Source: Syntrophobacteraceae bacterium
GTDB lineage: Bacteria; Desulfobacterota; Syntrophobacteria; Syntrophobacterales; Syntrophobacteraceae
Length of the DNA: 64,000 nt
Direction of reading: 5' to 3'
Assembly (NCBI GenBank): GCA_018053185.1
Contig: JAGPLX010000005.1
Coordinates: forward strand, 1-64,000
Of this stretch, positions 38,842-51,862 are shown piece after piece. Numbering within the stretch: the first letter of the stretch is position 1; each line of letters begins with the position of its first letter. The translations under genes and the position numbers were made by a program. The notes beneath the pieces are model-generated. The model ran no database searches. It was not told the DNA's origin and saw nothing but the letters and a program-made list of their open reading frames with translations.

Positions 38842-38928
38842 GCCGAAGTGGCGGAATTGGTAGACGCGCTAGGTTCAGGGTCTAGTGGGCGTACGCCTGT
38901 CGGGGTTCGAGTCCCCGCTTCGGCACCA
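38842..38928 (+). tRNA. tRNA-Leu (anticodon CAG)
   Basis: An 87-nt class II leucine tRNA has acceptor GCCGAAG/CTTCGGC and anticodon stem CTAGG/TCTAG. The loop TTCAGGG gives anticodon CAG; there is a long variable arm, a GGTTCGAGTCCC T-arm, and an encoded CCA. A short hairpin follows. Confidence 0.95.
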
Positions 38929-39199: not shown

Positions 39200-40700
39200 T
39201 CATGCTGCACAGGCAAAACCGCTGCCTGAGCAGTGATTTCGTTGGTGCTCCCGGCTTTGATGGAACGCCCGGTAGGCGTCCAGGCCGCCGCTTGACCGCA
39301 GGGAGCGAATCCTGAGTACGGCTTCTGCTCTTTTCAACCGCCACCGTGCCCCGGTCCGGTCCATTCGGTCCTTGATCAGGTGCCTGCAGGCACCCTCAAT
39401 GACTCCGGTGGCGATGGGGAGTCCTTCCGACAGGTATTGGTCGTATTCCAAGATGGGTCGGTATTTTTCAAGATAATCGGCATACTTGTCGACAACCCTG
39501 CGTCTGTCGGAGCTCAACTGATGCTACCTGGCGCTTTGGCGCAATCCGTAGACGATTTCCTCCGCCTTTCCCTGCAGGATCTTAAGCGCCTGCTCGGCCA
39601 CCCAGTCTTCGGGATCCACGCTCTCCACAGGATGGAAGCCATAGGCTGCCTTCCACAGATATTCCAGAACATGGATGAAATCCAGGATAAGAGTCATATC
39701 CGGTCGATGCTGACGAATCAAGCCAAGGACAAGATCGAGCTGTTCCCCGCCTCCGTCAACCAAGATCGCCCCAGGGGCGCTTCTTTTCCGGATCCCGCCC
39801 CAAGGCTTCGTCAAACATGTCCTGGATCACATCTTTTGGGTCCTGTTCTACACTGGCCCAAACCCGTTTATGCGTGGCTCGGGGACGGGCGGATTTCTCC
39901 TCGGTCGCGCACAGTCCCATGACCTCCTCGGGGTTGCGCTCGTCAGCCTTGATGTCATAGACGGCAGCAACGGTTGCCATGCGTTTGCGGTGGAGCTTCT
40001 CTCCCGGATGGAACCTTGCGCCCGGACGGCGCACAGACTCTTCGGCTGCTTTGCGTGTGGCATCTCGAAGGTCCTCCTTGCGCATGACAATCCCTTTTTG
40101 ATCGACGCTCATCACCGGAATATCCGATGTCGGCCCGGCTTCCTCCGTCTTTCCCGTCGAATAGAACTCTTCAAAATCCCGGGCAGCGACAACCGCTATC
40201 TCCTCCAGTTGTCGTTTGGGGACCTTTGCGCCCGTTGTTTTCTCAATATTGGCCACCGCTTCATCGAACGAGTTCACAGCCGCTTCTTCCGCCGCTCGAT
40301 ATCCGAGTCCGTGGGAGCAGCAACCCTTGGGCGGATTGAGCTCTCCATCCAACGGAAACATACTGGGCACTCCGGGGCAACTGTACCCTTTCCGTCTGCT
40401 CGTCACCTCTCCAAACAAGGTCATCAATTGCCGCTCACAGTTCGGTCTGCAATGAGTGAGGCGATCGCCGGCGGAGTTGGTCACCTCATGTCTTCACGGC
40501 TCCCGGGCGGCACGAAGATCCAGGTAGGCCTGCATGAGGCGCCTCGGCGGTTCGGTTCCCTCCCTGAAAATCAGAGCTTCAATGGGTCCATGCTCCATCT
40601 GCCCGGCTGTCTCACCGATAAGCCGGGAGACAAGGGATTCGAACTGCTCACAAGCCGGGCCGAACACCTCGCTTTCCATCGGGTACACCAGGATCATCAA
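39200..40700 (-). pseudogene. ISKra4-family transposase, broken
   Basis: The pieces together give one ISKra4-type transposase, read from 40700 down to 39200. The N-terminal part is followed by CERQLMTLFGEVTSRRKGY, then VMSVDQKGIVMR, DFIHVLEYLWKAAYGFHP, and finally GLPIATGVIEGACRHLIKDR with GARWRLKRAEAVLRIR. It is interrupted three times: an in-frame TGA at 40494-40496, a frameshift between about 39760 and 39810, and an in-frame TAG at 39524-39526. It is therefore inactive unless recoded. Confidence 0.85.
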
Positions 40701-41151: not shown

Positions 41152-42378
41152 ATGACTCAGACTGCGATCATTCTGGCCCGAGACAGCTTGGGTACGGAGA
41201 TGGTGTTCGGCGTTCCCGCTGTTCGAAGGCTGGTTCTTATTCTCAGGCAACTGGCCTTTCAGAAGATCCATGTAGTCGGGCGTGTCGACCTGGTGGAGAA
41301 GGTCGTTGCGGATCTTTTGTCTCCAGCCTTTCTGCACAGCTTTGGGGAAAAGGAATCTCCGGATGCGGCCTTGGAGCGAATCGAACTTTCCCCGGATGAG
41401 CGGGTCCTGGTTTTGATGGCCAATCACGTGGTCGACAGACATACCCTCGAATCCTTCCGGGAAATCGGCCAGGTTGATGTCCCTGCATGCCTAGTCGGGG
41501 CGGGCTGTGATGGGCTTGATGAAGGGGTTTTTCTTGTCGGCCGATCCGAGCTCCTGCCCATCGTCCGCTTCCTGTGGCTGGGAGAAAAGCTCGACGACGC
41601 CCTATCCCGGCGGATAAGGTACATTGAAGCTGCAGGTCGGTTACCCCACACTCTGGACGGCAAGAAAAATACCCCTGCCACCTCCGAAGATGCCCTGGCG
41701 GCTGCGCTGGGCATGCAAACCCATGCGGACGACGGCTTCATCGCCCGTCATTTCGATCGACACATCTCGCGGAGGATCAGCAGTCGAGTTGCTCGAACCC
41801 GCATGACCCCCAACGGCGTAACCCTCGTGGGCATGACCATCGGACTGACGGCCGCCTTTCTGCTGTCGCTTCCGGGTTACTGGGCCCACCTGCTGGGTTC
41901 GCTGCTATTTGTGTTCTGCGTGATCGTGGACGGGGTCGACGGGGAGCTTGCCCGCCTGAAACTCCAGGAGAGCCGATTTGGCCATTACCTGGATATCATC
42001 ACGGACAACATCGTTCATTTCGCCATATTCGTGGGAATCGCTTTCGGCCTCTATCACGATACCGGCAATGCCTGGTACCTGCGGATTCTATGGGTCATGC
42101 TCGGGGGATTCGGCCTGTGTTCTCTTGCCGTGTATCTATGTATCCTCCGATTGAGTGAAGACCGGCTCAAAGCTTCTCCCACTGCAATTCGATTCATGGC
42201 CTTGCTGAGCAACCGGGATTTCGCTTACCTCATAGCACTTCTAGCCGTGGCGGACCGACTCAACTGGTTCCTCATCGGCAGTGCGCTGGGATCCTATGTG
42301 TTTGCCGCAGCCCTCTGGACCATCAGCTATCGAGAAAGACGGAAGGCGCCCGGCGCAGCACAACCCTGCATCGAATAG
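41152..42378 (+). CDS. CDP-alcohol phosphatidyltransferase with degenerate nucleotidyltransferase-like N-terminus
   Basis: The 408-residue product has two parts. The C-terminal part (about 200-400) is a membrane CDP-alcohol phosphatidyltransferase with the diagnostic [27 protein letters not shown] pattern (DGxxxAR...G...D...D) and about six helices. The N-terminal 190 residues look like a nucleotidyltransferase fold in strand order ([10 protein letters not shown], then FQKIHVVG) but lack the GxGxR(L/M) and PKPLLP signatures. It resembles archaeal inositol-phosphate cytidylyltransferase/phosphotransferase fusions in layout. I infer that it joins a CDP-activated alcohol to another molecule, using CDP-substrate made by the separate nucleotidyltransferase at 47326-48033. 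Confidence 0.82.
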
Positions 42379-42466
42379 TCAACGCCGGTTTCCTGCCACC
42401 TGCCTGTTTCCCGACAGGTCCGGTACAGCGCGATTCAGGATCCACTTCTTGTGAGCACGGCCCTAA

Positions 42467-42508
42467 TGTTGTTTGCAGGGACCGGATACCCCCTTCTGCC
42501 AAGCCGTA
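42467..42508. repeat. Dispersed 42-nt intergenic repeat, copy B
   Basis: Ungapped match of 33 in 42 bases to 5722-5763, with the same upstream AGGTCCGG(T/C)ACAGC box. In copy B that box is about 50 bases upstream rather than adjacent. It lies between two convergent genes. Confidence 0.45.
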
Positions 42509-42594
42509 GCGGCGAGGCTTTGTCTCAAAGACAACTTGGATGGTTTCCGCCTGAAACAAGGCTCAAAATTTAACGTTTGCCTTTATGAAGACGG

Positions 42595-43605
42595 CTAGTT
42601 CGGCCCCTTGGCCTGGTGGGCCACTTCCACTTCCGAGTCGGATCTTTCCGACAGCAAGGTCGCGTAACACACCAGGCCCAAGCCTGACCGCAGAATCTGC
42701 TCCAGCCTCAGTGTCACTCCGTATGCCAGGCCCATGGCGGCGTCGAAACCGACCGCCTTCAAGGTAAACACACGCGTGGCCTCCTGGATCCCGATTCCCA
42801 GCGGCACGGCGAAGGTCATCAAATCAAACCAGCCCCCGAGGCACCAGATCCCGGCAGCCAGGCGCATCGATGCGTGGTCGGTCAGCAGGTACAAGAAATA
42901 CCAGGCCTGCAGGATGCCGCAAGCCATTCCCGCCATGTGCCACAGGAGGGCAATGGGTACCTCCAGGGGATGACTTCGGTAAAAGATCCGAAGCTCATCA
43001 TCCACTTCGGTAGCTTTCGTGGCGACAGCAGAGAGGTGCTTGCCCAGCAGCCTTCGGCCGGACAGCCAACGAAGAACGGCACCCAGCTTGCCGAATTTCT
43101 GAGCGATGAGGAACCCAAAGACCCCGGCTGCCAGAAGAGCACTGCCAGAGAGCAAAGCAGGCCACACACCGCGGGGCAGATCCACCCCCCAGAGTGTGAT
43201 GATGGATCCCAGGGAAACAAACAGCAGTTGTGCGATGGAGTAAGCAAGCTTTCCCACGACCACACCCTGGAAGGCTCCCTTGGCTGCGTGGTTCAAGGAG
43301 AGAAGTGTTCCCTTGGTGACTTCTCCGCCCAGGGTCGCAGTAGGTGTCAGATAATTGATGGCGTAGCCGGCCAGGCGGATGCGAAAGAGGCGGGAAAAGG
43401 AAAGGGACCTGAGCGTCCCCGGGAGGCAATGTTTCCATCCGATGGTGTGCAGAGCGTCTGCGACGATCTCGATGAGGACCAGCGGAACCAGGCCCCAGCC
43501 CAGCAAGCTCATCTGACTCCACAGTTCCCCAAAGCCGATCTGCAGGACCAAAAAGGTCAACAGGCCGAAGCCCAGAAGGACACACACCGTGTGGAATTTT
43601 ATCAT
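42595..43605 (-). CDS. Flippase-like / lysylphosphatidylglycerol-synthase TM-region protein
   Basis: The 336-residue protein has about eight membrane helices and belongs to the UPF0104/AglD-type family (membrane part of MprF). The N-terminus is VCVLLGFGLLTFLVLQIGFGELW; conserved polar segments include NYLTPTATLGGEVTKGTLL and FAVPLGIGIQEATRVFTLKAVGFD. Members move or transfer lipid-linked molecules across the membrane. The gene converges with the phosphatidyltransferase and closes the presumed lipid cluster. Its cargo is unknown. Confidence 0.8.
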   Translation of the reverse strand: MIKFHTVCVLLGFGLLTFLVLQIGFGELWSQMSLLGWGLVPLVLIEIVADALHTIGWKHCLPGTLRSLSFSRLFRIRLAGYAINYLTPTATLGGEVTKGTLLSLNHAAKGAFQGVVVGKLAYSIAQLLFVSLGSIITLWGVDLPRGVWPALLSGSALLAAGVFGFLIAQKFGKLGAVLRWLSGRRLLGKHLSAVATKATEVDDELRIFYRSHPLEVPIALLWHMAGMACGILQAWYFLYLLTDHASMRLAAGIWCLGGWFDLMTFAVPLGIGIQEATRVFTLKAVGFDAAMGLAYGVTLRLEQILRSGLGLVCYATLLSERSDSEVEVAHQAKGPN

Positions 43606-43931
43606 TCGAAGTTCGTCCCAGCCTTATCGGCACGGAAGCCCCCATGCCATTTGCCTATCCGTCGTCCAGGGGCTTACCCACAACGGAAATCGGGAAGATG
43701 CAATCCAACCGCGAACCGGTATCACGGATCCACGTTCCACCACGAAGGTCACGAAGAAAAACGCATACATTCTTCTCCGGGTGACCTTTGTGGTAATGTC
43801 TCTCTTCCGCTATCCCCCGTCATAATGAAGGCCGCACTGTATGTGGCCCGAAATCAGGAACCGATCTCCTGCGCACCATGCGGCCGGACTCATGTTCGAA
43901 GGATGACCTTGTCGCATCCACCCTGCCGCCG
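43606..43931. other. Intergenic region with a palindromic repeat
   Basis: No gene is seen. CACCACGAAGGTCAC (from 43738) pairs imperfectly with GTGACCTTTGTGG (43781-43793). This is the common accACGAAGGxCACGAAG-type intergenic palindrome of many bacterial genomes, and it would fold as a hairpin of about 55 nt between the dehydrogenase and flippase-like genes. Confidence 0.5.
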
Positions 43932-44981
43932 TCATGCCGCAGAGCCGAGGAGTCCTACGGGGGATGAGCCCTCCCGGCTGGACCGGTAGGCCGACTCGAT
44001 GAGCTGAATACATCGGCGGGCCTCCCTGAGATTGGTGCCTCGCCGCCGGCCGTCCTCAATCTCTCGAGCGAAGTCCTCGACCACGCAATCCATCCATTCC
44101 GGATGATGGGACCCTGCGGAAAGAGCTTCCGGGAAGCTGTGACGAACGGGAGCAGAACCGTTCGAGACCACCACGATATGGTCGTCGTTGATGAACAAGG
44201 TACCCTGATCCCCCACAACCATCCCGAAATTTCGCCGACATGGCCCACGCCAGGTAAAGTGAAGGTGCGCCTCAGCCTGCGGGAACCGGATCACCACGTC
44301 CACGGCCTCCTCGACTCCTGACTTGCCGCCGCAGGGAGGTTCCATCCGGGCCGAAACGGAAAGAGGGGATTCCTGGATCATGTCGAAGATCAGGTATAGA
44401 TTGTGCCAGCCGTGGTCAATCATGATCCCCCCACAGGCCAGCTCGGGGTCGCTCCGCCAGTTGGATGCGCCGCCTCCGGAGCTGGAAACGCGGAGGACAT
44501 TCATAAAGACGGATCGCACCCTCCCGATTCGATTCTCCCGGATCAACTCGAGGGTTTTGACCCAGAGAGGAGCATATTTCCAGTTGTTTACCGTAAACAC
44601 CACCTTGTGCGTCCTCGACGCTGCTTCCCGGATGCGTTCGAAGCTGCCCATCGAGGTCGTCAGGGGCTTCTCGCAGAAGACATGGAGGCCGGCCTGGCAG
44701 GACGCTATCACCAGGTCGTCATGGAAACGGGGAGGAGTACATATGTCCACAAAATCCAGCCCGTTTTCGCACAACATCTCATCCACCCTGAGATACACTC
44801 GAACCCCCGTCAGCATCTCCTGGGCCTTGCGGGCCCTTTCGGCATTGGGTTCCACCACCGCATCGATTCGAAAATGAGGACTCTTGCGCCATACGGGCAA
44901 GTGAGCATTCTCCGCCACATTCCCAAAGCCGATGATGGCTCCTCGCAGCAAATTCCCGTCTTCCGGTGACTTCAAAACCAT
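43932..44981 (-). CDS. Gfo/Idh/MocA-family oxidoreductase
   Basis: This NAD(P)-dependent dehydrogenase acts on sugars or cyclitols by family. With the ATG at 44981 it has 349 residues (a TTG at 45056 would add 25). It shows the Rossmann start RGAIIGFGNVAENAHLP, VDICTPPRFHDDLVIASCQAG, and the family hallmark HVFCEKPLTTS with the catalytic Lys. Further on are GGIMIDHGWHNLYLIFDM with the His pair and a C-terminal sheet. In this cluster it may oxidise a hydroxyl to a ketone for the neighbouring aminotransferase; this is inference. Confidence 0.85.
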   Translation of the reverse strand: MVLKSPEDGNLLRGAIIGFGNVAENAHLPVWRKSPHFRIDAVVEPNAERARKAQEMLTGVRVYLRVDEMLCENGLDFVDICTPPRFHDDLVIASCQAGLHVFCEKPLTTSMGSFERIREAASRTHKVVFTVNNWKYAPLWVKTLELIRENRIGRVRSVFMNVLRVSSSGGGASNWRSDPELACGGIMIDHGWHNLYLIFDMIQESPLSVSARMEPPCGGKSGVEEAVDVVIRFPQAEAHLHFTWRGPCRRNFGMVVGDQGTLFINDDHIVVVSNGSAPVRHSFPEALSAGSHHPEWMDCVVEDFAREIEDGRRRGTNLREARRCIQLIESAYRSSREGSSPVGLLGSAA

Positions 44982-45092
44982 TTCAAACCGTTCTTCCAGG
45001 GCCTTGTTTCGGCGAGAGCCGCCGTCCTCGGTCCCCCGCAAGCCCAAGTCCCGCAATTTCCCATGCGGATACCCGGATCATTCCTCCGAAGT

Positions 45093-46433
45093 TTACTTGT
45101 ATGGTATGTGATCGGCCACGAACCGGAAAACCTCATCGAGGATTGCCAACCCCTCATCAGCTTCCTCACGGGTGAGGACCAGGGGAGGATTGATGCGAAA
45201 ATTGGGCTTGTAGTTCATGGACACCATCCCCCGCTTGAGGGTCTCGAGAAATATTTGCCTCGTAACGGACCTCTCCAGGGGTTCCCGGCTTCTGCGGTCC
45301 CTGACCAACTCAACTCCGATGAGCAGACCCACGCCGCGTACGTCGCCGATGAATTCGTATTTTTCCTGGAGCCCCCGCAGGCCGTTCAGCAGGTGTTCCC
45401 CCACCTTCCGGGAATTCTCCACCAGAGACTCATCGATAATGGTTCGTACCGTGGCGAGGGCGGCCGTACATGCCAGGGGATTGCCTCCGTAACTGCTGGA
45501 CGAAGAGCTGGGTTTCGAGAAAGGCTTGCTGGCGGTGATCTCGTCGGTCGAAATGAGCCCCGAAACAGGAAATCCGCTTCCCAGCCCTTTCCCTATGGTC
45601 ATAATGTCCGGGACGAGGCCGGTGTGATTGGAGCCGAACATCATCCCGGTACGGCCGAAGCCGGTGATCATTTCGTCGGCAATGAGAAGAGCATCGTTTT
45701 CTCGAGCGATCTGGAGCAGGCCGGGCAAAAACTCGGGAGGAGGAATGACGTTCCCGGCCGTTCCCTGCATGGGTTCCACGATGATGGCGGCCAGGCTCCC
45801 GGCGGTGTTGTTTTCGATGATCTTGCGGACAAATTCGAGGCAGAACAGGCCGCATTCCGGATAGGTCATCCGGAACGGGCATCGGTAGCAGTCCGCATAG
45901 GGGGCCAGGTGCAGACCCGGATACAAGGTGCCCCAGTTTTTCTTGAAGGCATCGCCGATGAGGCCCAGGACTCCTCCCGTCTTCCCGTGAAAGCCGCCCC
46001 AGAAACTGAGCACCTCGAACTTTTTCGTATAGGACTTGGCCAGCCGAATGGCGGCTTCCACCGCTTCGGCACCCCCGCTGTAGAGCTGGGTCCGACGCAG
46101 CCCCGGAGGGGTGAGGGAGGCGATAAGCCGTAGCAGCTCCACCCGGTTTTCCGTGGTGAAGCTTCCCACGGTGACCTTGTCCAGCTGTTCCTTGAGGGCT
46201 GTAACATACCGGGGATGCACATGGCCGAGACTGCACACGGCGACACCCGCCATGAAATCGAGGTAGGATTTCCCTTCCATGTCCAGGAGACGGCATCCCC
46301 TGGCCTCCTTGATCACCAGTCGCGAAAGCTGGCTCACCTCCTGAAGGCCGGGAGACACGAATTCTTGTTCTTCCTCGTACAGCCGGGAGGAAAGGGTCTG
46401 GGTCGGTATGAAATAGGAACCTTCAAAATGCAC
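45093..46433 (-). CDS. Class-III PLP-dependent aminotransferase
   Basis: The 446-residue product begins at a GTG (46433) with AAAGGAG ten bases upstream. It has the class-III signature with MTIGKGLGSGFPVSG (PLP-binding Lys), SGGAEAVEAAIRLAKSYT, and an Asp in LLIADEMITGFGRTG. It also carries CYRCPFRMTYPECGLFC, a Cys-rich loop seen in GABA-type aminotransferases. By family it transfers an amino group from an amino acid to an aldehyde or ketone. The neighbouring dehydrogenase could supply the ketone. HpnO of hopanoid synthesis is also a class-III enzyme, but that identity is not shown here. Confidence 0.88.
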   Translation of the reverse strand: MHFEGSYFIPTQTLSSRLYEEEQEFVSPGLQEVSQLSRLVIKEARGCRLLDMEGKSYLDFMAGVAVCSLGHVHPRYVTALKEQLDKVTVGSFTTENRVELLRLIASLTPPGLRRTQLYSGGAEAVEAAIRLAKSYTKKFEVLSFWGGFHGKTGGVLGLIGDAFKKNWGTLYPGLHLAPYADCYRCPFRMTYPECGLFCLEFVRKIIENNTAGSLAAIIVEPMQGTAGNVIPPPEFLPGLLQIARENDALLIADEMITGFGRTGMMFGSNHTGLVPDIMTIGKGLGSGFPVSGLISTDEITASKPFSKPSSSSSSYGGNPLACTAALATVRTIIDESLVENSRKVGEHLLNGLRGLQEKYEFIGDVRGVGLLIGVELVRDRRSREPLERSVTRQIFLETLKRGMVSMNYKPNFRINPPLVLTREEADEGLAILDEVFRFVADHIPYK

Positions 46434-46516
46434 GAGGATATCGCTCCTTTGCAGTATCGCCCACGGCTCGTTCCGCCAGTGGGGGCGCCTCTACTTCGAC
46501 GCGGTTCGAGTGAAAT

Positions 46517-47329
46517 TCATAGTGCCCTGTTTTGCAGATAGAGGGCAATGTTCCTGGCGGCCGGTCGACGACAGCGGGAAAAACTGGGCCAATCGTTCAA
46601 GTCGATGAGGGTGACGCTGCCGTTGCCCGTCATGACGGCGTCCCCTCCGTACACTTCGAGCCCCACCACTCCTGCCGCTCGTTGTGCTACCGGTCCCAGC
46701 ACCTCAGCCACCTCCGTCGTGATGTCCACGTCGGTGGAAGCCAGAAAGGCCTTGAAGTAATCGCCCCGGCCGACACCGTAGAACTTGACCACGGGACCCG
46801 CCACATGGCCCTGGACAAGGATTTCGTTAACGTTGTGACGGCGAAAATGTTGCAGGGCACGGGAAAGCTCTTCCCTCGAGGCAATCGACACCACATCGCC
46901 CTTCCGAACGGCGTGAACATCCCCCCGTTTCAGCCACACGGGAACGGATGAGGGCAGGGTGATTTTCTCCAGGGCCGCACCCACGGGTACGATCTCGCTC
47001 GGAGGGACCGGCAGCCCGGCCCTCTCGAGAGCCAGGCTCAGGGGCTTGCGATAACACTTTCGAATCGAATCCAATGAGTTAACCACCCGGGTTCCCAGTC
47101 GTGCCCAGTCTTCGATCACGGCAAGGACGCTCGGAGACTGGGCCATGGTGAGCACCCAGGAAGGCCGGGGTATGGACCCGTCCAGGTCTTCAGCCCGGAC
47201 GGCATCCACTCGAAACCCCATGGAGGAGAGCTCTTCAAGGGTATCGTCGAGGATGGCCGCATCGTCTCGGACTTTTCCCGGTGAAAAGACACGCTCTCTG
47301 TAGATGCCCAGAATGCTTTCAGGTTTCAT
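46517..47329 (-). CDS. ATP-grasp-like protein
   Basis: The 270-residue protein looks like a compact ATP-grasp enzyme: an N-terminal pre-ATP domain (GIYRERVFSPGKVRDD), a central lobe with VPVWLKRGDVHAVRKGDVV, and a second lobe with EILVQGHVAGPVVKFYGVG. Near the C-terminus TLIDLNDWPSFSRCR holds a Glu/Asp-Asn pair that could bind magnesium. Such enzymes join an acid to an amine or thiol through an acyl phosphate. Its start overlaps the nucleotidyltransferase stop as ATGA, so it is co-translated. The substrate is unknown. Confidence 0.7.
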   Translation of the reverse strand: MKPESILGIYRERVFSPGKVRDDAAILDDTLEELSSMGFRVDAVRAEDLDGSIPRPSWVLTMAQSPSVLAVIEDWARLGTRVVNSLDSIRKCYRKPLSLALERAGLPVPPSEIVPVGAALEKITLPSSVPVWLKRGDVHAVRKGDVVSIASREELSRALQHFRRHNVNEILVQGHVAGPVVKFYGVGRGDYFKAFLASTDVDITTEVAEVLGPVAQRAAGVVGLEVYGGDAVMTGNGSVTLIDLNDWPSFSRCRRPAARNIALYLQNRAL

Positions 47330-48033
47330 CTCCCGCCGATCTCCTCCAGAAAAGCCTCTGCCTTTCGGATGTCCTCGGGATAGTCCACGTCGACCGTCTT
47401 CGACACGGGAACACCGTAAACACGGTAGCCGCTTTCGACCAGCAGTCCCAGGAACTGGCGAAAGGCCGTCAATCTCCTGGCCCTGGCTTCCTCGATCAAC
47501 GAAAAGATCTCGGGGCGGAACGCATAGAAACCCGCCGTGATGAACTCGCTCCTCGAGGCATCCTCTCCAAGGGTCGTCACTCTTCCCTTCCCGTCCACGG
47601 CCGCGTGGAGGGGTTTTTCGTCATCGATAAACCTGGTGAGGGCAAGGATTCCCGAGGCATCCGTCAACTCGGGCACGCGTCGGTAAAAAGACGCCAGGGT
47701 GTCCAGCCCGAAAACTACATCCACGGTCGAAAGCAGGAAAGGTCCCTTCTCGAGAAAAGGTCGCAGGGCAAACAGGCTCTCCATGGAGCTGGGCGTTGTT
47801 TTTACCAGAACATCCACCGGCACGGGCCATGGCCTTGAGCGCAGATACCCGGCGGTCGCCGGGGTTAGGTCGTTGACGATGCACGCGACGGAACTCAACC
47901 CGATTCGAGCGGCGGACTCGATGATCCTGGCGATGAGAGGCTTTCCTCCGATGGGAAGCAGGGGCTTGGGAATCGAAACGCCCCCCCGGGCAAGGCGTTC
48001 TCCGGTGCCGGCGGCAAGAATGCCCATTCTCAT
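47326..48033 (-). CDS. NTP-transferase (MobA/GlmU-type nucleotidyltransferase)
   Basis: The 235-residue product starts MRMGILAAGTGERL, the classical nucleotide-binding G-x-G-x-R loop, and continues with SIPKPLLPIGGKPLIARI. It then shows FLLSTVDVVFG with a metal-binding Asp and EFITAGFYAFRPE. It activates a phosphorylated sugar, cyclitol or alcohol by attaching CMP or another NMP. The ATG at 48033 overlaps the upstream HAD stop as ATGA. It is the best candidate to make the CDP-alcohol used by the phosphatidyltransferase of this locus. Confidence 0.88.
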   Translation of the reverse strand: MRMGILAAGTGERLARGGVSIPKPLLPIGGKPLIARIIESAARIGLSSVACIVNDLTPATAGYLRSRPWPVPVDVLVKTTPSSMESLFALRPFLEKGPFLLSTVDVVFGLDTLASFYRRVPELTDASGILALTRFIDDEKPLHAAVDGKGRVTTLGEDASRSEFITAGFYAFRPEIFSLIEEARARRLTAFRQFLGLLVESGYRVYGVPVSKTVDVDYPEDIRKAEAFLEEIGGR

Positions 48034-48740
48034 GTCAGCAGCAGCTCCAGTTCGGTGAGGTTGGAGATACAACCGTCCACCGGTTCCGCCTCTCGAGGAA
48101 TGCGCGGCTTGGGTCCCTTCAACCAGATGGTTTTCATTCCCATCCTCCGAGCAGGCATCATATCGCGCTCGTAGGAGTCTCCCACGAAGATGGTTTCGCC
48201 GGCTTCAAGCCCGAGTTCCTCCAGAGCCATCCGAAAGATCCCGGGGTCCGGCTTGCCGACCCCGACCTGCGTCGAGTCCATGATCACGTCCAACCATCGC
48301 GCGAGGCCGGCTTCTTCGCAGAGAACTCCTACGTTGCCGTAAAAGTTCGACACCACTCCCAAATGAAATCGCTCCCTGAGCTGGGCCAGCAGGGAAGCGT
48401 TGCGACGGAGAAACGACTCCGCCCGAGAGCAGAAGCCCTCGACCAGCACATCTTCCCATCCGGCCCCCGAATGTCCCAGCTCCTCCAACTGAAGGCGCAC
48501 GTGATAGCGCAAAAGGGGCCTGAGGCCCAGTCCCAGAACGTGAGGGTCTCCACAGCACAAGGCATCGGCACGGTAGAAGGCCCGCTTGATTTCCTGCTGG
48601 GGCACGTCGATGCCTTCCTTTTCATAGAGCTCGTAGAACCGGTCGAGCCAGTGCTCACCGTCGGAATCGAGCGTCCCCCCGAAATCGAGCAGAATGCCTT
48701 TGCATTCCTTGAATTCGTCGTAGGATGGCGGTCCGTACAT
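48030..48740 (-). CDS. HAD-superfamily hydrolase-like protein, altered motif I
   Basis: The 236-residue HAD protein has GILLDFGGTLDSDG (motif I), VVSNFYG (motif II), GVGKPDPGIF (motif III Lys) and IFVGDSYERDM (motif IV). It has a C1-type helical cap. In motif I the Asp at position +2 after the nucleophile, the general acid in phosphatases, is Gly. Such substitution occurs in HAD enzymes other than simple phosphatases, so a phosphatase role is not certain. It starts 3 bases after the radical-SAM gene ends and overlaps the next gene by 4. Confidence 0.85.
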   Translation of the reverse strand: MYGPPSYDEFKECKGILLDFGGTLDSDGEHWLDRFYELYEKEGIDVPQQEIKRAFYRADALCCGDPHVLGLGLRPLLRYHVRLQLEELGHSGAGWEDVLVEGFCSRAESFLRRNASLLAQLRERFHLGVVSNFYGNVGVLCEEAGLARWLDVIMDSTQVGVGKPDPGIFRMALEELGLEAGETIFVGDSYERDMMPARRMGMKTIWLKGPKPRIPREAEPVDGCISNLTELELLLT

Positions 48741-48743
48741 GGG

Positions 48744-50213
48744 CTACCTGGGAAGATTGTCCACGCAAGTTCCGGGCGTGGCGGACAAATGTCCTCCGAC
48801 TCTTTTTCGAGCACGGAGGTAGTTGAGGAACTCCCTGCCCTCACGCAGCCGACGCACCAGCATGTGCCGCTCGGTGGCCATTTCTCGAAACATCCGAAGA
48901 ATTGGCTTCCAGCGAAAGTAAAATCGTCGGTACATACGTTCGACGGCTTCCTCGATCTCGTCGACATCCAGGTCGGGATAGCGGAGCGTCGGGATCTGGA
49001 TCCCGTTCTCTGCCACCAGGGTGCCGTTGTCGATCCACCCGTTTTTTACCGCTTCGGCATGGAGTTCCGTGCCCTCGAAGGGAGCCGCGATGGAGACCTG
49101 GATGGTGTATGGGTCCAGCTCCTGGGCGAAGCGAATGGTCTTTTCGATGGTCTCCCGTGTCTCGATGGGAAGGCCGATGATGAAAGTGCCGTGCACTTTG
49201 ATGCCCAGCTCACGGCAATGGTGCATGAACCGCCTCGACGTATCGAGCGAGACACCTTTCCGAATCCGGTTCAGGATCTGTTGGTTTCCGGATTCGAACC
49301 CGACGACCAAAAGTCGCAAACCGTTGTTCTTGAGGCTTCGCAGAGTTTCATAGTCGAGATTCGCCCGGGCATTGCACGACCAGGTGAGACCCAGTCTCTT
49401 CATTCCTTTACTGATTTCCACCGCGCGGGCCGGATCGGCGGTAAAGGTGTCGTCGTCAAAGAACCATTCCCGTGCCTGGGGAAACAGGGCTTTCCCCTCC
49501 TCCACTTCGCGTACAACCGCTTTCGGACTCTTCGTGCGGTACCGGTGGCCGCCCAGAGTCTGGGGCCAGAGGCAAAAAGTGCACCGCGCCGCGCAGCCTC
49601 GGCCCGTATAGAACGAGATGAACGGGTGCAGCAGGTAGCCCACGAAGTAATTCTCGATGGCAAGATCCCGATGGTAGACCGGTAACACGCTGGGCAGTCC
49701 ATCGAGGTTCTCGAGGAAGTCGCGGTCGGGTGTATGGCGGATGGAACCGTTCCCGGTCCTGTAACTCAAGCCCTTGACGCGTTCGTAAGGCCACCCCTGT
49801 GCCAGCTCGAGACAAGCGTAATCGAATTCGCGTCGGCATACAAAATCCAGGTTCGGGGCCTGTTGCAAGGTCTCTTCGGGCAGGACGGTGACGTGGGCGC
49901 CGACGAAACCGACCTCCATCGAGGGTTTCCTGGCTTTCAAGGCATCCACGAACAGGATGTCGCTCCTCAAGGTTGGAGAACTCGTGCTGATGACGACGAG
50001 CTCAAATTCCTCCGCCGATCGAAGGACATTGTCGAAGGAAAGGCCGTGGGGGGGAGCGTCGATGAGCCTGCTCCCCGGTATCAGAGCTACGGGCTGTGCC
50101 AGCCAGGTGGGATACCAGTAGGAAGTAATTTCTCGCCGGGCAGGGTAGCGTGCCCCCGCTGCTCCGTCGAAGCCCTTGAAGGATGGAGGGCTGAGAAAAA
50201 GGGCTTTCTTCAA
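48744..50213 (-). CDS. HpnJ-like B12-binding radical SAM protein
   Basis: The product (489 residues from the TTG at 50213, where the translation reads MKKALFLSPPS like HpnJ family members) closely follows the layout of HpnJ. HpnJ is the hopanoid-modifying radical SAM enzyme that turns a glucosaminyl hopanoid into the cyclitol ether. Seen here are SFKGFDGAAGARYPARREI, a B12-binding-like domain (to about residue 170), and the radical SAM motif FYTGRGCAARCTFCLWPQTLGGH with CxxxCxxC. REWFFDDDTF, LLVVGFESGNQQIL and HGTFIIGLPIETRETI follow. A TTG at 50255 would add 14 residues. No squalene-hopene cyclase is in the window, so hopanoid action is inference. It starts the cluster. Confidence 0.82.
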   Translation of the reverse strand: MKKALFLSPPSFKGFDGAAGARYPARREITSYWYPTWLAQPVALIPGSRLIDAPPHGLSFDNVLRSAEEFELVVISTSSPTLRSDILFVDALKARKPSMEVGFVGAHVTVLPEETLQQAPNLDFVCRREFDYACLELAQGWPYERVKGLSYRTGNGSIRHTPDRDFLENLDGLPSVLPVYHRDLAIENYFVGYLLHPFISFYTGRGCAARCTFCLWPQTLGGHRYRTKSPKAVVREVEEGKALFPQAREWFFDDDTFTADPARAVEISKGMKRLGLTWSCNARANLDYETLRSLKNNGLRLLVVGFESGNQQILNRIRKGVSLDTSRRFMHHCRELGIKVHGTFIIGLPIETRETIEKTIRFAQELDPYTIQVSIAAPFEGTELHAEAVKNGWIDNGTLVAENGIQIPTLRYPDLDVDEIEEAVERMYRRFYFRWKPILRMFREMATERHMLVRRLREGREFLNYLRARKRVGGHLSATPGTCVDNLPR

Positions 50214-50281
50214 GGCAGTCAATTTCCTTTTCGTTTCCTTTCCGTCGCGACGCAAGCTTCGTCTTGGGCAGTCTGCTGTTC

Positions 50282-50354
50282 GGACCCATCACCGGCTTCC
50301 CAGGAGCCTCAAGTTGCTGCGACCCACTGCTCCCCCATTCCGCCCCGGTGATCC
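50282..50354 (-). ncRNA. Candidate structured leader RNA upstream of the HpnJ-like gene
   Basis: On the minus strand GGA and TCACCGG (50345-50354) pair with CCGGTGA and TCC (50282-50295), leaving a TGGG bulge. Inside, GGAGC pairs with GCTCC (50329-50333 with 50303-50307). Together this is a nested fold of about 73 nt between the promoter and the start codon. It does not match a riboswitch class I could confirm. Confidence 0.3.
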
Positions 50355-50449
50355 GTACGCCTCCTCTAAACCCGTAATCACGTGAGCGGTGGGCTTGGTT
50401 AAGCATTGGAGGATGGCTGATTATTATAACTTTATAGCTCAACATAATA

Positions 50450-50479
50450 ATTCTACTATTATACGAAACCCGAGGTCAA
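50450..50479 (-). promoter_or_regulatory. Probable sigma-70 promoter of the HpnJ-like gene cluster
   Basis: Within an AT-rich patch, the minus strand has TTGACC (50474-50479), 18 bases of spacer, and TAGAAT (50450-50455). The start point would be near 50443, giving a leader of about 230 bases before the gene. Confidence 0.5.
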
Positions 50480-50737
50480 TTAAGACTTCATCCCAAACCG
50501 GTCCTTTGGCGTTCGGGCTCGGGATTCGCCGACCGGCTGGGAACAACCAAGAGTTGCTCTGAAAAGCCCTCTACCCCGCAAATCCATGTTCTGCACTTCC
50601 TCAAATTGTCGAGGTTACCGGGATCCTCAACCGGCAGTCAGGGCTCTTCGTTCAATTCGAACTCATAAATCCCATCAGCCACTTATGCTATTCATGGATG
50701 GCGGGGAATGGGACAGTGGAAATCCTGGTCCGTGGAA

Positions 50738-51862
50738 TCAGGAAACCAGCCCGATGACCTTGCCGGTACAGGATGATTCATATCCGGGAAGAGAACGCAG
50801 TTCTTCGCGCAAGGCGCGCATCTGCAAGACGTCCTGCAAGATTTTTACCGCCGGTAAGTCCAAGAAATCACACGGGATGACCAGATCACACCGCACGGCC
50901 TCGATGGGGACGAGATCCAGGCCGTACGCAGCGGCAACGGCTCGAAGCCCCAAAGCGGCGTCCACTATGTTGAGAGCGACCATCTGGGCGCATTGATCAT
51001 GGGTCCATGCGAGATGGTTGTACCCACGGATGCTCTCACCCGAAAGCCCAGCTTGAGCCAAATGGTCATCCAGCAGTATACGCAGAGCGGCACCGGGTTC
51101 ACGGTTGACAAACCGGATATTCTCCCTGGCCAGGTCAGCAACACACTGGATCTTATGGGGATTTCCCGCAGCAACCATCAAGCCTTCCTCGAAGAACGAG
51201 AAGGCTACCACCATGGCTTTGATGCCCTCGAGATTCTTCTCCGCCAGCGCGAGATTGGATTCCCCCCTTCCCGGATTGTGCAGATGAGTTCCCGCCACGT
51301 GGGCGTGACCAGCGGCGAGCCTTTCCATCGCCAACTGGCTCGAGGCGAATCGGCACTGGATTTCCGCGTCAGCCGGCCATCGGGATGCATGAGCGCTCAA
51401 GATGGCAAAGGCAGGGTCACAGCCGAACAGTAGTATTCTCTTATCCAGGATTTCCCTTTGTCGAAAAAGCCGGACACAGGCTCCATCATTCAGCAACAAC
51501 CCGTCAGCGGCGCAAAAACCGTCACGGAGCATCCGTTTGCCCTCAAGAGGATAGGCGATGAGGGATTCACCTACTCTGACCATGGTGACTCGGGTATTCT
51601 TCGTGTCCGCCTTCTCCACCAGGGTTACCGGCAGTTCCTCTTGAGACTGCTCCAGCACAAAGAGATCTTCGACCTTACATCCGAGGCGCTGGGCCATCTG
51701 AAGCGCCAAGGTGGTGTTGGGCACATATCGTCCCGTCTCTATGTCATAGATCGCCTGCCGCTTGACTCCAACGCTTTCCGCCAGTTGACTCTGAGAGAGC
51801 CCTTTGGCTTTGCGCACCGACCTGAGGTTGCATGTCACCCGGTTTTTGCCCGATCCCATCAC
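50738..51862 (-). CDS. HTH / periplasmic-binding-like regulator, probably of molybdate or tungstate genes
   Basis: The 374-residue product has an N-terminal XRE helix-turn-helix (about 10-65; LRSVRKAKGLSQSQLAESVGV, then AIYDIETGRYVPNTTLALQMA). The C-terminal domain (about 130-350) resembles the PBP-like domain found next to molybdate/tungstate genes, with RILLFGCDPAFAILSAHASR, FVNREPGAALRILLDDHL and MVALNIVDAALGLRAVA. Effector binding there would control DNA binding. It is the last gene of the uptake cluster, on the same strand but behind its own promoter and palindrome. The metal assignment is inference. Confidence 0.82.
   Translation of the reverse strand: MMGSGKNRVTCNLRSVRKAKGLSQSQLAESVGVKRQAIYDIETGRYVPNTTLALQMAQRLGCKVEDLFVLEQSQEELPVTLVEKADTKNTRVTMVRVGESLIAYPLEGKRMLRDGFCAADGLLLNDGACVRLFRQREILDKRILLFGCDPAFAILSAHASRWPADAEIQCRFASSQLAMERLAAGHAHVAGTHLHNPGRGESNLALAEKNLEGIKAMVVAFSFFEEGLMVAAGNPHKIQCVADLARENIRFVNREPGAALRILLDDHLAQAGLSGESIRGYNHLAWTHDQCAQMVALNIVDAALGLRAVAAAYGLDLVPIEAVRCDLVIPCDFLDLPAVKILQDVLQMRALREELRSLPGYESSCTGKVIGLVS

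Follow-up and report, generated by a model that had tools for sequence, protein, structure and literature searches.

A Syntrophobacteraceae gene cluster proposed to build a phospho-aminoinositol lipid head group

A candidate aminoinositol lipid pathway

This work concerns a block of eight genes at positions 41152–50255 of a 64,000-nucleotide stretch of DNA (hereafter, the window; positions 1 to 64,000 of contig JAGPLX010000005.1) from a Syntrophobacteraceae bacterium (assembly GCA_018053185.1; 2.63 Mb, 111 contigs, 94% complete). On balance, we favour a reading in which the block encodes enzymes that make and attach the head group of a phospho-aminoinositol membrane lipid. In the proposed scheme, every chemical step of which is inferred from protein families and gene context, (i) a synthase whose gene lies elsewhere in the genome would supply myo-inositol phosphate, (ii) the HAD protein would strip the phosphate, (iii) the Gfo/Idh protein would oxidise one inositol hydroxyl, (iv) the class-III aminotransferase would convert the ketone to an amine, giving an inosamine, (v) the ATP-grasp protein would phosphorylate the inosamine, (vi) the NTP transferase would generate CDP-inosamine, (vii) the CDP-alcohol phosphotransferase would pass phospho-inosamine to a lipid alcohol, and (viii) the HpnL-like protein would aid flipping or export of the product.

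Inositol lipids have been described as relatively rare in bacteria. If the scheme is correct, amino-inositol lipids—relatives of phosphatidylinositol with positively charged heads—are predicted in environmental bacteria. By gene family, the core of the cluster (cytidylyltransferase-like, ATP-grasp, CDP-alcohol phosphotransferase, HpnL-like and HAD genes) matches an alternative inositol-lipid cluster that has already been predicted, and the window cluster is probably an enlarged, amino form of this predicted pathway of gut bacteria. Two elements are new: an ATP-grasp enzyme that the main text of the earlier description does not mention and that may be the missing inositol kinase, and an amination module that is gained and lost as one unit. 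The comparison also ties the core of the predicted Prevotella/Bacteroides pathway to many phyla, and to myo-inositol-phosphate synthase (MIPS).

The eight genes form a recurring block

Seven of the genes lie on the minus strand, running from position 50255 down to 42595. The first encodes an HpnJ-type B12-binding radical SAM enzyme (48744–50255; 723.5 bits to TIGR03471, cut-off 577.6; start codon uncertain), and its stop codon is 3 bp from the start of a soluble type-I HAD hydrolase (48030–48740; PF00702, 65.6 bits). There follow an NTP transferase (47326–48033; PF12804/PF00483) and a small ATP-grasp protein (46517–47329; no Pfam match and a weak RimK-family NCBIfam match), with ATGA overlaps at both the HAD/NTP transferase and NTP transferase/ATP-grasp junctions. 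A gap of ~83 bp leads to a class-III aminotransferase (45093–46433; PF00202, 332 bits), one of ~111 bp to a Gfo/Idh/MocA oxidoreductase (43932–44981, with its ATG at 44981; PF01408), and one of 326 bp to an HpnL-like/LPG_synthase_TM membrane protein (42595–43605; PF03706, 70.4 bits; 114 bits to the HpnL model TIGR03476, below its cut-off of 195.65). The eighth gene, which encodes a CDP-alcohol phosphotransferase (41152–42378; PF01066, 45.9 bits), is on the plus strand and converges with the other seven. A first-pass annotation of the window had listed these eight families together with 3-bp or ATGA junctions among the first four genes and short gaps to the next two; Pfam and NCBIfam searches recover all eight, and the sequence bears out the junctions.

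When the ATP-grasp protein was used as a query against 39 genomes of the order, it was found in seven, all of them Syntrophobacteraceae and belonging to six genera. The order of the block, from HpnJ to HpnL with the phosphotransferase on the opposite strand, is nearly constant across these seven genomes, at protein identities of 47–82% and with one divergent exception; some of the relatives' contigs stop within the block. Identity among the family clusters is 77–82% for the class-III aminotransferase. Five of the six other genomes with the block carry the cluster HpnJ, and the opposite-strand position of the phosphotransferase is retained in G301, G307, G315 and G323, the last of which has a second phosphotransferase-like gene. 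Genome G314 carries a divergent radical SAM protein (29% identity) in the HpnJ position, and its HpnL and phosphotransferase genes are relocated and diverged. The relatives with the cluster include an isolate, Desulfoferrobacter suflitae DRH4 (L085). Because the block also occurs in six other genomes of the family, its arrangement is beyond chance: the eight genes are a real unit, and by family and context a single functional one, as first proposed. Relatives that carry these genes keep them together.

More widely, an alignment of the seven ATP-grasp proteins was used to search 84,980 species genomes and gave 211 confirmed places. The loci read here are the best 80 of the 211 by similarity, and thus a ranked sample rather than a census; gene contents were counted over the 69 loci of at least 14 kb. 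Genes for the NTP transferase, phosphotransferase and HAD protein adjoin the ATP-grasp gene in most of the fetched loci, across Bacteroidetes, Verrucomicrobia, Ignavibacteria, Gemmatimonadetes, Elusimicrobia, Acidobacteria, Deltaproteobacteria, Bacteriovorax and Binatia.

The cluster core and its link to inositol

An alternative cluster encoding an NTP transferase, a CDP-alcohol phosphotransferase and a HAD protein has been described near MIPS in inositol-lipid-producing Bacteroidetes that lack the enzymes used by B. thetaiotaomicron, and was proposed, though not confirmed, to act via CDP-inositol (PMC9246714). Bacteroides vulgatus, which carries the core cluster, makes phosphoinositol dihydroceramide (PMC9246714). 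The same three genes are encoded together in the window. In the Bacteroidetes loci read here, an ATP-grasp gene—and in several cases also an HpnL-like gene—lies between them. The string 'grasp' does not occur in the main text of PMC9246714, and the gene numbers given there (BVU_RS13095, 13105 and 13115) leave two that would fit the ATP-grasp and HpnL-like genes. The window cluster differs from the published one in that it also contains HpnJ and the pair of Gfo/Idh and class-III aminotransferase genes, its phosphotransferase is long, with an extra N-terminal half, and MIPS is encoded elsewhere in the genome rather than nearby.

MIPS is a gene family adjoining the cluster in 33 loci, and in 31 of the 69 long loci (19 without the amination pair, 12 with it). 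Core genes together with MIPS were seen in Bacteroidetes, Ignavibacteria, Elusimicrobia, Bacteriovorax and other Deltaproteobacteria. When whole genomes were searched with PF01658, all 34 of the other genomes with the cluster that were examined had MIPS, as against 6 of 14 control genomes (the genomes are not independent). Since MIPS lies beside many loci and is present in all of these other genomes, the cyclitol is most likely inositol. In Syntrophobacteraceae, MIPS is not beside the cluster but elsewhere in the genome; in the window genome, contig C44 ends inside the gene (190.6 bits to PF07994), which accounts for its missing PF01658 match. Two other ideas were discarded. With PF07994 alone, several cluster genomes appeared to be devoid of MIPS, but PF01658 finds it in all of them, divergent forms having escaped the former model. 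A general scheme in which HpnJ replaces MIPS as the ring-forming enzyme was rejected, as every family member tested carries MIPS, the ones with the HpnJ-bearing cluster among them.

Proposed activation and transfer of the head group

The NTP transferase is proposed to be a CTP:(amino)inositol-phosphate cytidylyltransferase. Its profile matches CTP:inositol-1-phosphate cytidylyltransferase (IPCT) structures 2xme (2.5e-13) and 4mnd (1.1e-12). The first-pass annotation had considered that this protein might group with heptose or teichoic-acid enzymes; its profile singled out neither.

The family-matching domain of the phosphotransferase occupies the C-terminal half of the protein, the N-terminal half being ~200 residues without a family match. 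The window protein has the full DxxDGxxAR(x8)GxxxDxxxD motif. The single row of the phosphotransferase alignment that lacks the motif at both spacings is a wrong-frame open reading frame (L058:6540-7802), and one other row (L084) has a shorter spacing after AR. The protein's best NCBIfam model is a CDP-inositol enzyme, the IPCT/DIPPS model NF041135, though its score (85.6 bits, residues 192–313), like the 51.9 bits of the NTP transferase, is below the cut-off of 580 bits. For the phosphotransferase we propose a reaction in which CDP-(amino)inositol donates its phospho-(amino)inositol group to a lipid alcohol. Activation by a nucleotidyltransferase and transfer by a CDP-alcohol phosphotransferase, as originally put forward, are both supported by family and context. 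A comparable pairing of a CTP-dependent nucleotidyltransferase with a DIPPS-related CDP-alcohol phosphotransferase is found in the CDP-inositol pathway of hyperthermophiles, which yields di-myo-inositol phosphate and archaeal inositol lipids. The window cluster differs from that pathway in encoding the NTP transferase as a separate gene, in scoring far below the equivalog cut-offs, and in the addition of the amination genes. As a side observation, the short CDP-alcohol phosphotransferases of Bacteroidetes loci such as L116, L119, L121 and L159 have the last Asp of the motif replaced by Gly.

The HAD profile best matches soluble type-I HAD structures; the nucleophilic Asp is retained, and the residue two positions on is Gly in all 25 relatives. 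We prefer a predicted phosphatase acting on a soluble substrate, inositol phosphate. A lipid-phosphotransferase-like role, as suggested in PMC9246714, was considered, and the soluble type-I matches favour the phosphatase instead. The HpnL-like protein is proposed to be a flippase or lipid-export partner.

The proposed amination pair is gained and lost together

Among the 69 long loci, the Gfo/Idh and aminotransferase genes are both present in 37 and both absent in 32; no locus has only one of the two. This strictly paired gain and loss within an inositol pathway points to a conversion of inositol to inosose to inosamine, the Gfo/Idh protein being a predicted inositol dehydrogenase and the aminotransferase a predicted inosose aminotransferase. 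The top NCBIfam match of the Gfo/Idh protein is inositol 2-dehydrogenase (TIGR04380; 70.5 bits, far below the cut-off of 355), and its motifs CEKP and GG(I/V)xxDxGxH are kept in 19 of 19 relatives. A precedent comes from the antibiotic hygromycin A, for which conversion of inositol to an inosamine via a Gfo/Idh enzyme and an aminotransferase has been proposed, and whose dehydrogenase acts on myo-inositol in vitro (PMC10949010). That proposed scheme comprises MIPS, a phosphatase, a Gfo/Idh inositol dehydrogenase and an aminotransferase (Hyg18, Hyg25, Hyg17 and Hyg8); unlike the window cluster, it belongs to a secondary metabolite, and no CDP activation or lipid transfer is named there. The original proposal of an amino-cyclitol made by a dehydrogenase and a transaminase thus stands, by family and context, and can be sharpened to inositol as the likely cyclitol.

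Kinase or ligase: the ATP-grasp protein

The ATP-grasp protein was modelled with AlphaFold2 (pLDDT 95) and has an ATP-grasp fold. Because the gene is also present in loci that lack the dehydrogenase and aminotransferase, the protein is not simply an amide ligase for the transaminase-made amine, which cannot be its general substrate; the earlier suggestion that it amidates the new amine is therefore not supported. Our preference, held with some reserve, is for a predicted (amino)inositol kinase. A ligase joining an amino acid or a similar group to the head group or lipid, with the rest of the inositol pathway standing, is a tentative alternative, and the small remainder falls to some other activity.

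Sequence profiles match both types of enzyme: the top match is the peptide ligase PsnB (7drm, 4.6e-6), followed by ITPK4 (inositol 1,3,4-trisphosphate 5/6-kinase 4; 7pup, 1.1e-5) and, more weakly, inositol-tetrakisphosphate 1-kinase (1.3e-3). A ligase is favoured by the structural comparison, which ranks ArgX/LysX, D-Ala-D-Ala ligase, RimK and PsnB first, and by the RimK family being the top NCBIfam match (TIGR00768; 37.1 bits, below the cut-off of 143.4). Fold comparison was set aside as an arbiter between kinase and ligase, being not decisive. Pfam matches to RimK (PF08443; 7 of 42 members, best E 0.0021) are as weak as those to sugar-transfer ATP-grasp and inositol-kinase families (ITPK, PF05770; 7 of 42 members, best E 0.0091). 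The conserved motifs argue for a kinase: D-x-N followed by (D/S)WPS is present in 42 of 42 rows and K-F-Y in 39 of 42, and in the aligned comparison the kinase 7pup shows KFY and DLN, while PsnB shows LELN, an E-x-N type. The resemblance to ITPK4 extends to a PSF stretch and a K-F-Y stretch after D-x-N, although the window protein aligns significantly in its C-terminal part only. A ligase would, moreover, leave the scheme without a kinase between free inosamine and its phosphate.

A separate HpnJ lineage and the hopanoid genes

Of 297 genomes examined in the phylum, 30 have an HpnJ match above the cut-off, and 28 of these 30 also have squalene-hopene cyclase; the exceptions are the window genome and G056. 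The cyclase was found in all 25 family-mates tested, and gave no match anywhere in the window assembly. The first-pass annotation had recorded no cyclase and had asked after hpn genes elsewhere in the genome. The cyclase absence thus extends to the whole assembly, but this is 94% complete and contains hpnH, together with hpnI and hpnK side by side on another contig near TolC, HpnN-like and HpnM-like genes. These hpn genes weaken the absence as proof that hopanoids are not made, and the absence probably reflects a gap in the assembly. There is no HpnJ beside hpnI and hpnK in the window genome; the cluster copy is its only one.

A second HpnJ, lying apart from the cluster, is present in four family members (G307, G315, G323 and G305); wherever the contig is long enough to show its surroundings, hpnK/hpnI are its neighbours. 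In a quick tree with some long branches, the cluster copies form one clade (SH-aLRT 99), near the HpnJ of HR30 and of a Binatia metagenome-assembled genome (MAG); the separation from the other copies is firmer than this sister relation. In HR30 and the Binatia MAG, HpnJ is encoded on the opposite strand ~2 kb beyond the cluster end, and HpnK and HpnB are nearby. Recent duplication of the family's hopanoid copy was rejected: the AU test excludes a single clade of the two (p 3.7e-64; some long branches). By phylogeny, then, the cluster HpnJ is a lineage separate from the family's hopanoid copies.

The presence of HpnJ ties the cluster to hopanoid metabolism in Syntrophobacteraceae, where the enzyme may serve this head group, hopanoids (possibly the side chain alone) or both. 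In Alphaproteobacteria, hpnI, hpnK and hpnJ are nearly all-or-none (PMC12583986). The window cluster resembles this HpnI-HpnK-HpnJ cyclitol-ether pathway in its HpnJ family enzyme, its HpnL-like protein and, in some loci, its HpnN- and HpnM-like neighbours; it differs in having no HpnI or HpnK, in its separate HpnJ clade, and in the other genes, which are outside the known pathway. It therefore offers a concrete setting in which to ask about the role of HpnJ outside the usual HpnI-HpnK context.

Several observations concern hopanoid genes outside the cluster. Genome G056 (98% complete) has HpnJ and HpnI above the cut-offs, yet neither a squalene-hopene cyclase match nor an above-cut-off HpnH. 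SQS_PSY (PF00494) gave no match in 11 genomes (the window genome and ten others), nine of which have a cyclase match; in these bacteria squalene may come from a different route or from an enzyme that has diverged, and no literature on squalene synthesis in this group was found. A diverged MIPS paralogue (~150 bits to PF07994) lies ~3 kb from the hopanoid HpnJ in two genomes of one genus (G255:C33:87601-88770 and G303:C72:9063-10232), so that inositol and hopanoid genes are also linked away from the cluster.

Lipid acceptor and alternative readings

Squalene-hopene cyclase was found in 15 of the 27 tested genomes with the amination pair and not in the other 12, which include Ignavibacteria, Gemmatimonadetes, Eisenbacteria, Bacteriovorax and an Elusimicrobia MAG; the test also took in three Bacteroidetes without the pair, and many of the genomes are MAGs, so that single absences are weak. 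In Verrucomicrobia (L098, L100, L107, L109, L112 and L113), the clusters adjoin serine-palmitoyltransferase-like, GNAT and, mostly, SDR genes. This set suggests a ceramide acceptor, and the loci may be aminoinositol phosphoceramide loci. The acceptor probably differs among lineages, being diacylglycerol, ceramide or hopanoid. As for the hopanoid or phospholipid acceptor first proposed, the link between HpnJ and hopanoids is real in the family, and hopanoid genes lie near the cluster in Binatia and HR30, but the amino form without a cyclase indicates that a hopanoid is not required; in Syntrophobacteraceae, a hopanoid acceptor is possible.

We consider it unlikely that the cluster is instead a hopanoid head-group pathway, in which a cyclitol is formed on the hopanoid by HpnJ and is aminated, phosphorylated or decorated by the products of the remaining genes. 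By TIGR03471 the first gene is a genuine HpnJ, and it is the only copy in a genome that has hpnH, hpnI, hpnK, TolC, HpnN and HpnM, from a pathway whose hpnI, hpnK and hpnJ tend to occur together in Alphaproteobacteria; HpnK follows the cluster in HR30 and Binatia; and HpnN-like, HpnM-like and TolC genes lie beside it in related Deltaproteobacteria. Against this, most loci have no HpnJ, amination-pair clusters occur in the cyclase-lacking lineages listed above, and four family members keep their second HpnJ apart from the cluster. A narrower version, in which the Syntrophobacteraceae cluster would build a hopanoid with a phospho-aminoinositol head and its own HpnJ lineage would shape the linking sugar or cyclitol, is quite unlikely; we know of no lipid of this type, a phosphorylated aminocyclitol hopanoid.

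It is likewise unlikely that the Gfo/Idh protein and aminotransferase act on a nucleotide sugar or sugar phosphate, so that an ordinary amino sugar rather than an aminocyclitol would result. Gfo/Idh enzymes do use many sugars, the weaker NCBIfam matches include UDP-GlcNAc 3-dehydrogenase, and the NTP transferase profile is RmlA-like; however, the phosphotransferase and cytidylyltransferase matches are of the inositol type, and MIPS is in every other cluster genome checked and adjacent in many. The least probable reading is a soluble inositol phosphodiester (di-myo-inositol-phosphate-like) or glycan precursor in place of a membrane lipid. It draws on the top NCBIfam model of the phosphotransferase, an archaeal solute-making CDP-inositol:inositol-phosphate transferase (at 85.6 bits, far from the cut-off), and is countered by the HpnL-like flippase in many loci, the HpnN-like, HpnM-like and TolC genes beside some, the ceramide-type gene set in Verrucomicrobia, and the inositol sphingolipid made by B. 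vulgatus with its core cluster (PMC9246714).

The phospho-aminoinositol lipid pathway that we favour has several points standing against it. HpnJ has no place in the scheme; the NTP transferase profile is slightly better with RmlA-type glucose-1-phosphate thymidylyltransferases than with the inositol enzymes; the top profile match of the dehydrogenase is glucose-fructose oxidoreductase, with inositol dehydrogenases (3cea and 4hkt) also matched; and the fold of the ATP-grasp protein is, as described above, closest to ligases. Family members without the cluster also carry MIPS, making its presence there weak evidence. Finally, no aminoinositol phospholipid was found in the literature searched, the coverage of which leaves out most subscription journals.

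Surroundings of the cluster

A conserved MoaA/PqqE-like radical SAM gene lies near the cluster in G301, G323 and G314 (L061:1874-2839, L059:2302-3267 and L063:16059-17027), and is not in the window. Directly upstream of HpnJ in the window, and on the same strand, is a gene for a regulator with helix-turn-helix and PBP-like (MoeA-type C-terminal) parts (50738–51862). Beyond the other end of the cluster is a tRNA-Leu gene (CAG; 38842–38928), followed at 39200–40484 by several short open reading frames that have no Pfam match and may represent a decayed gene or insertion element.

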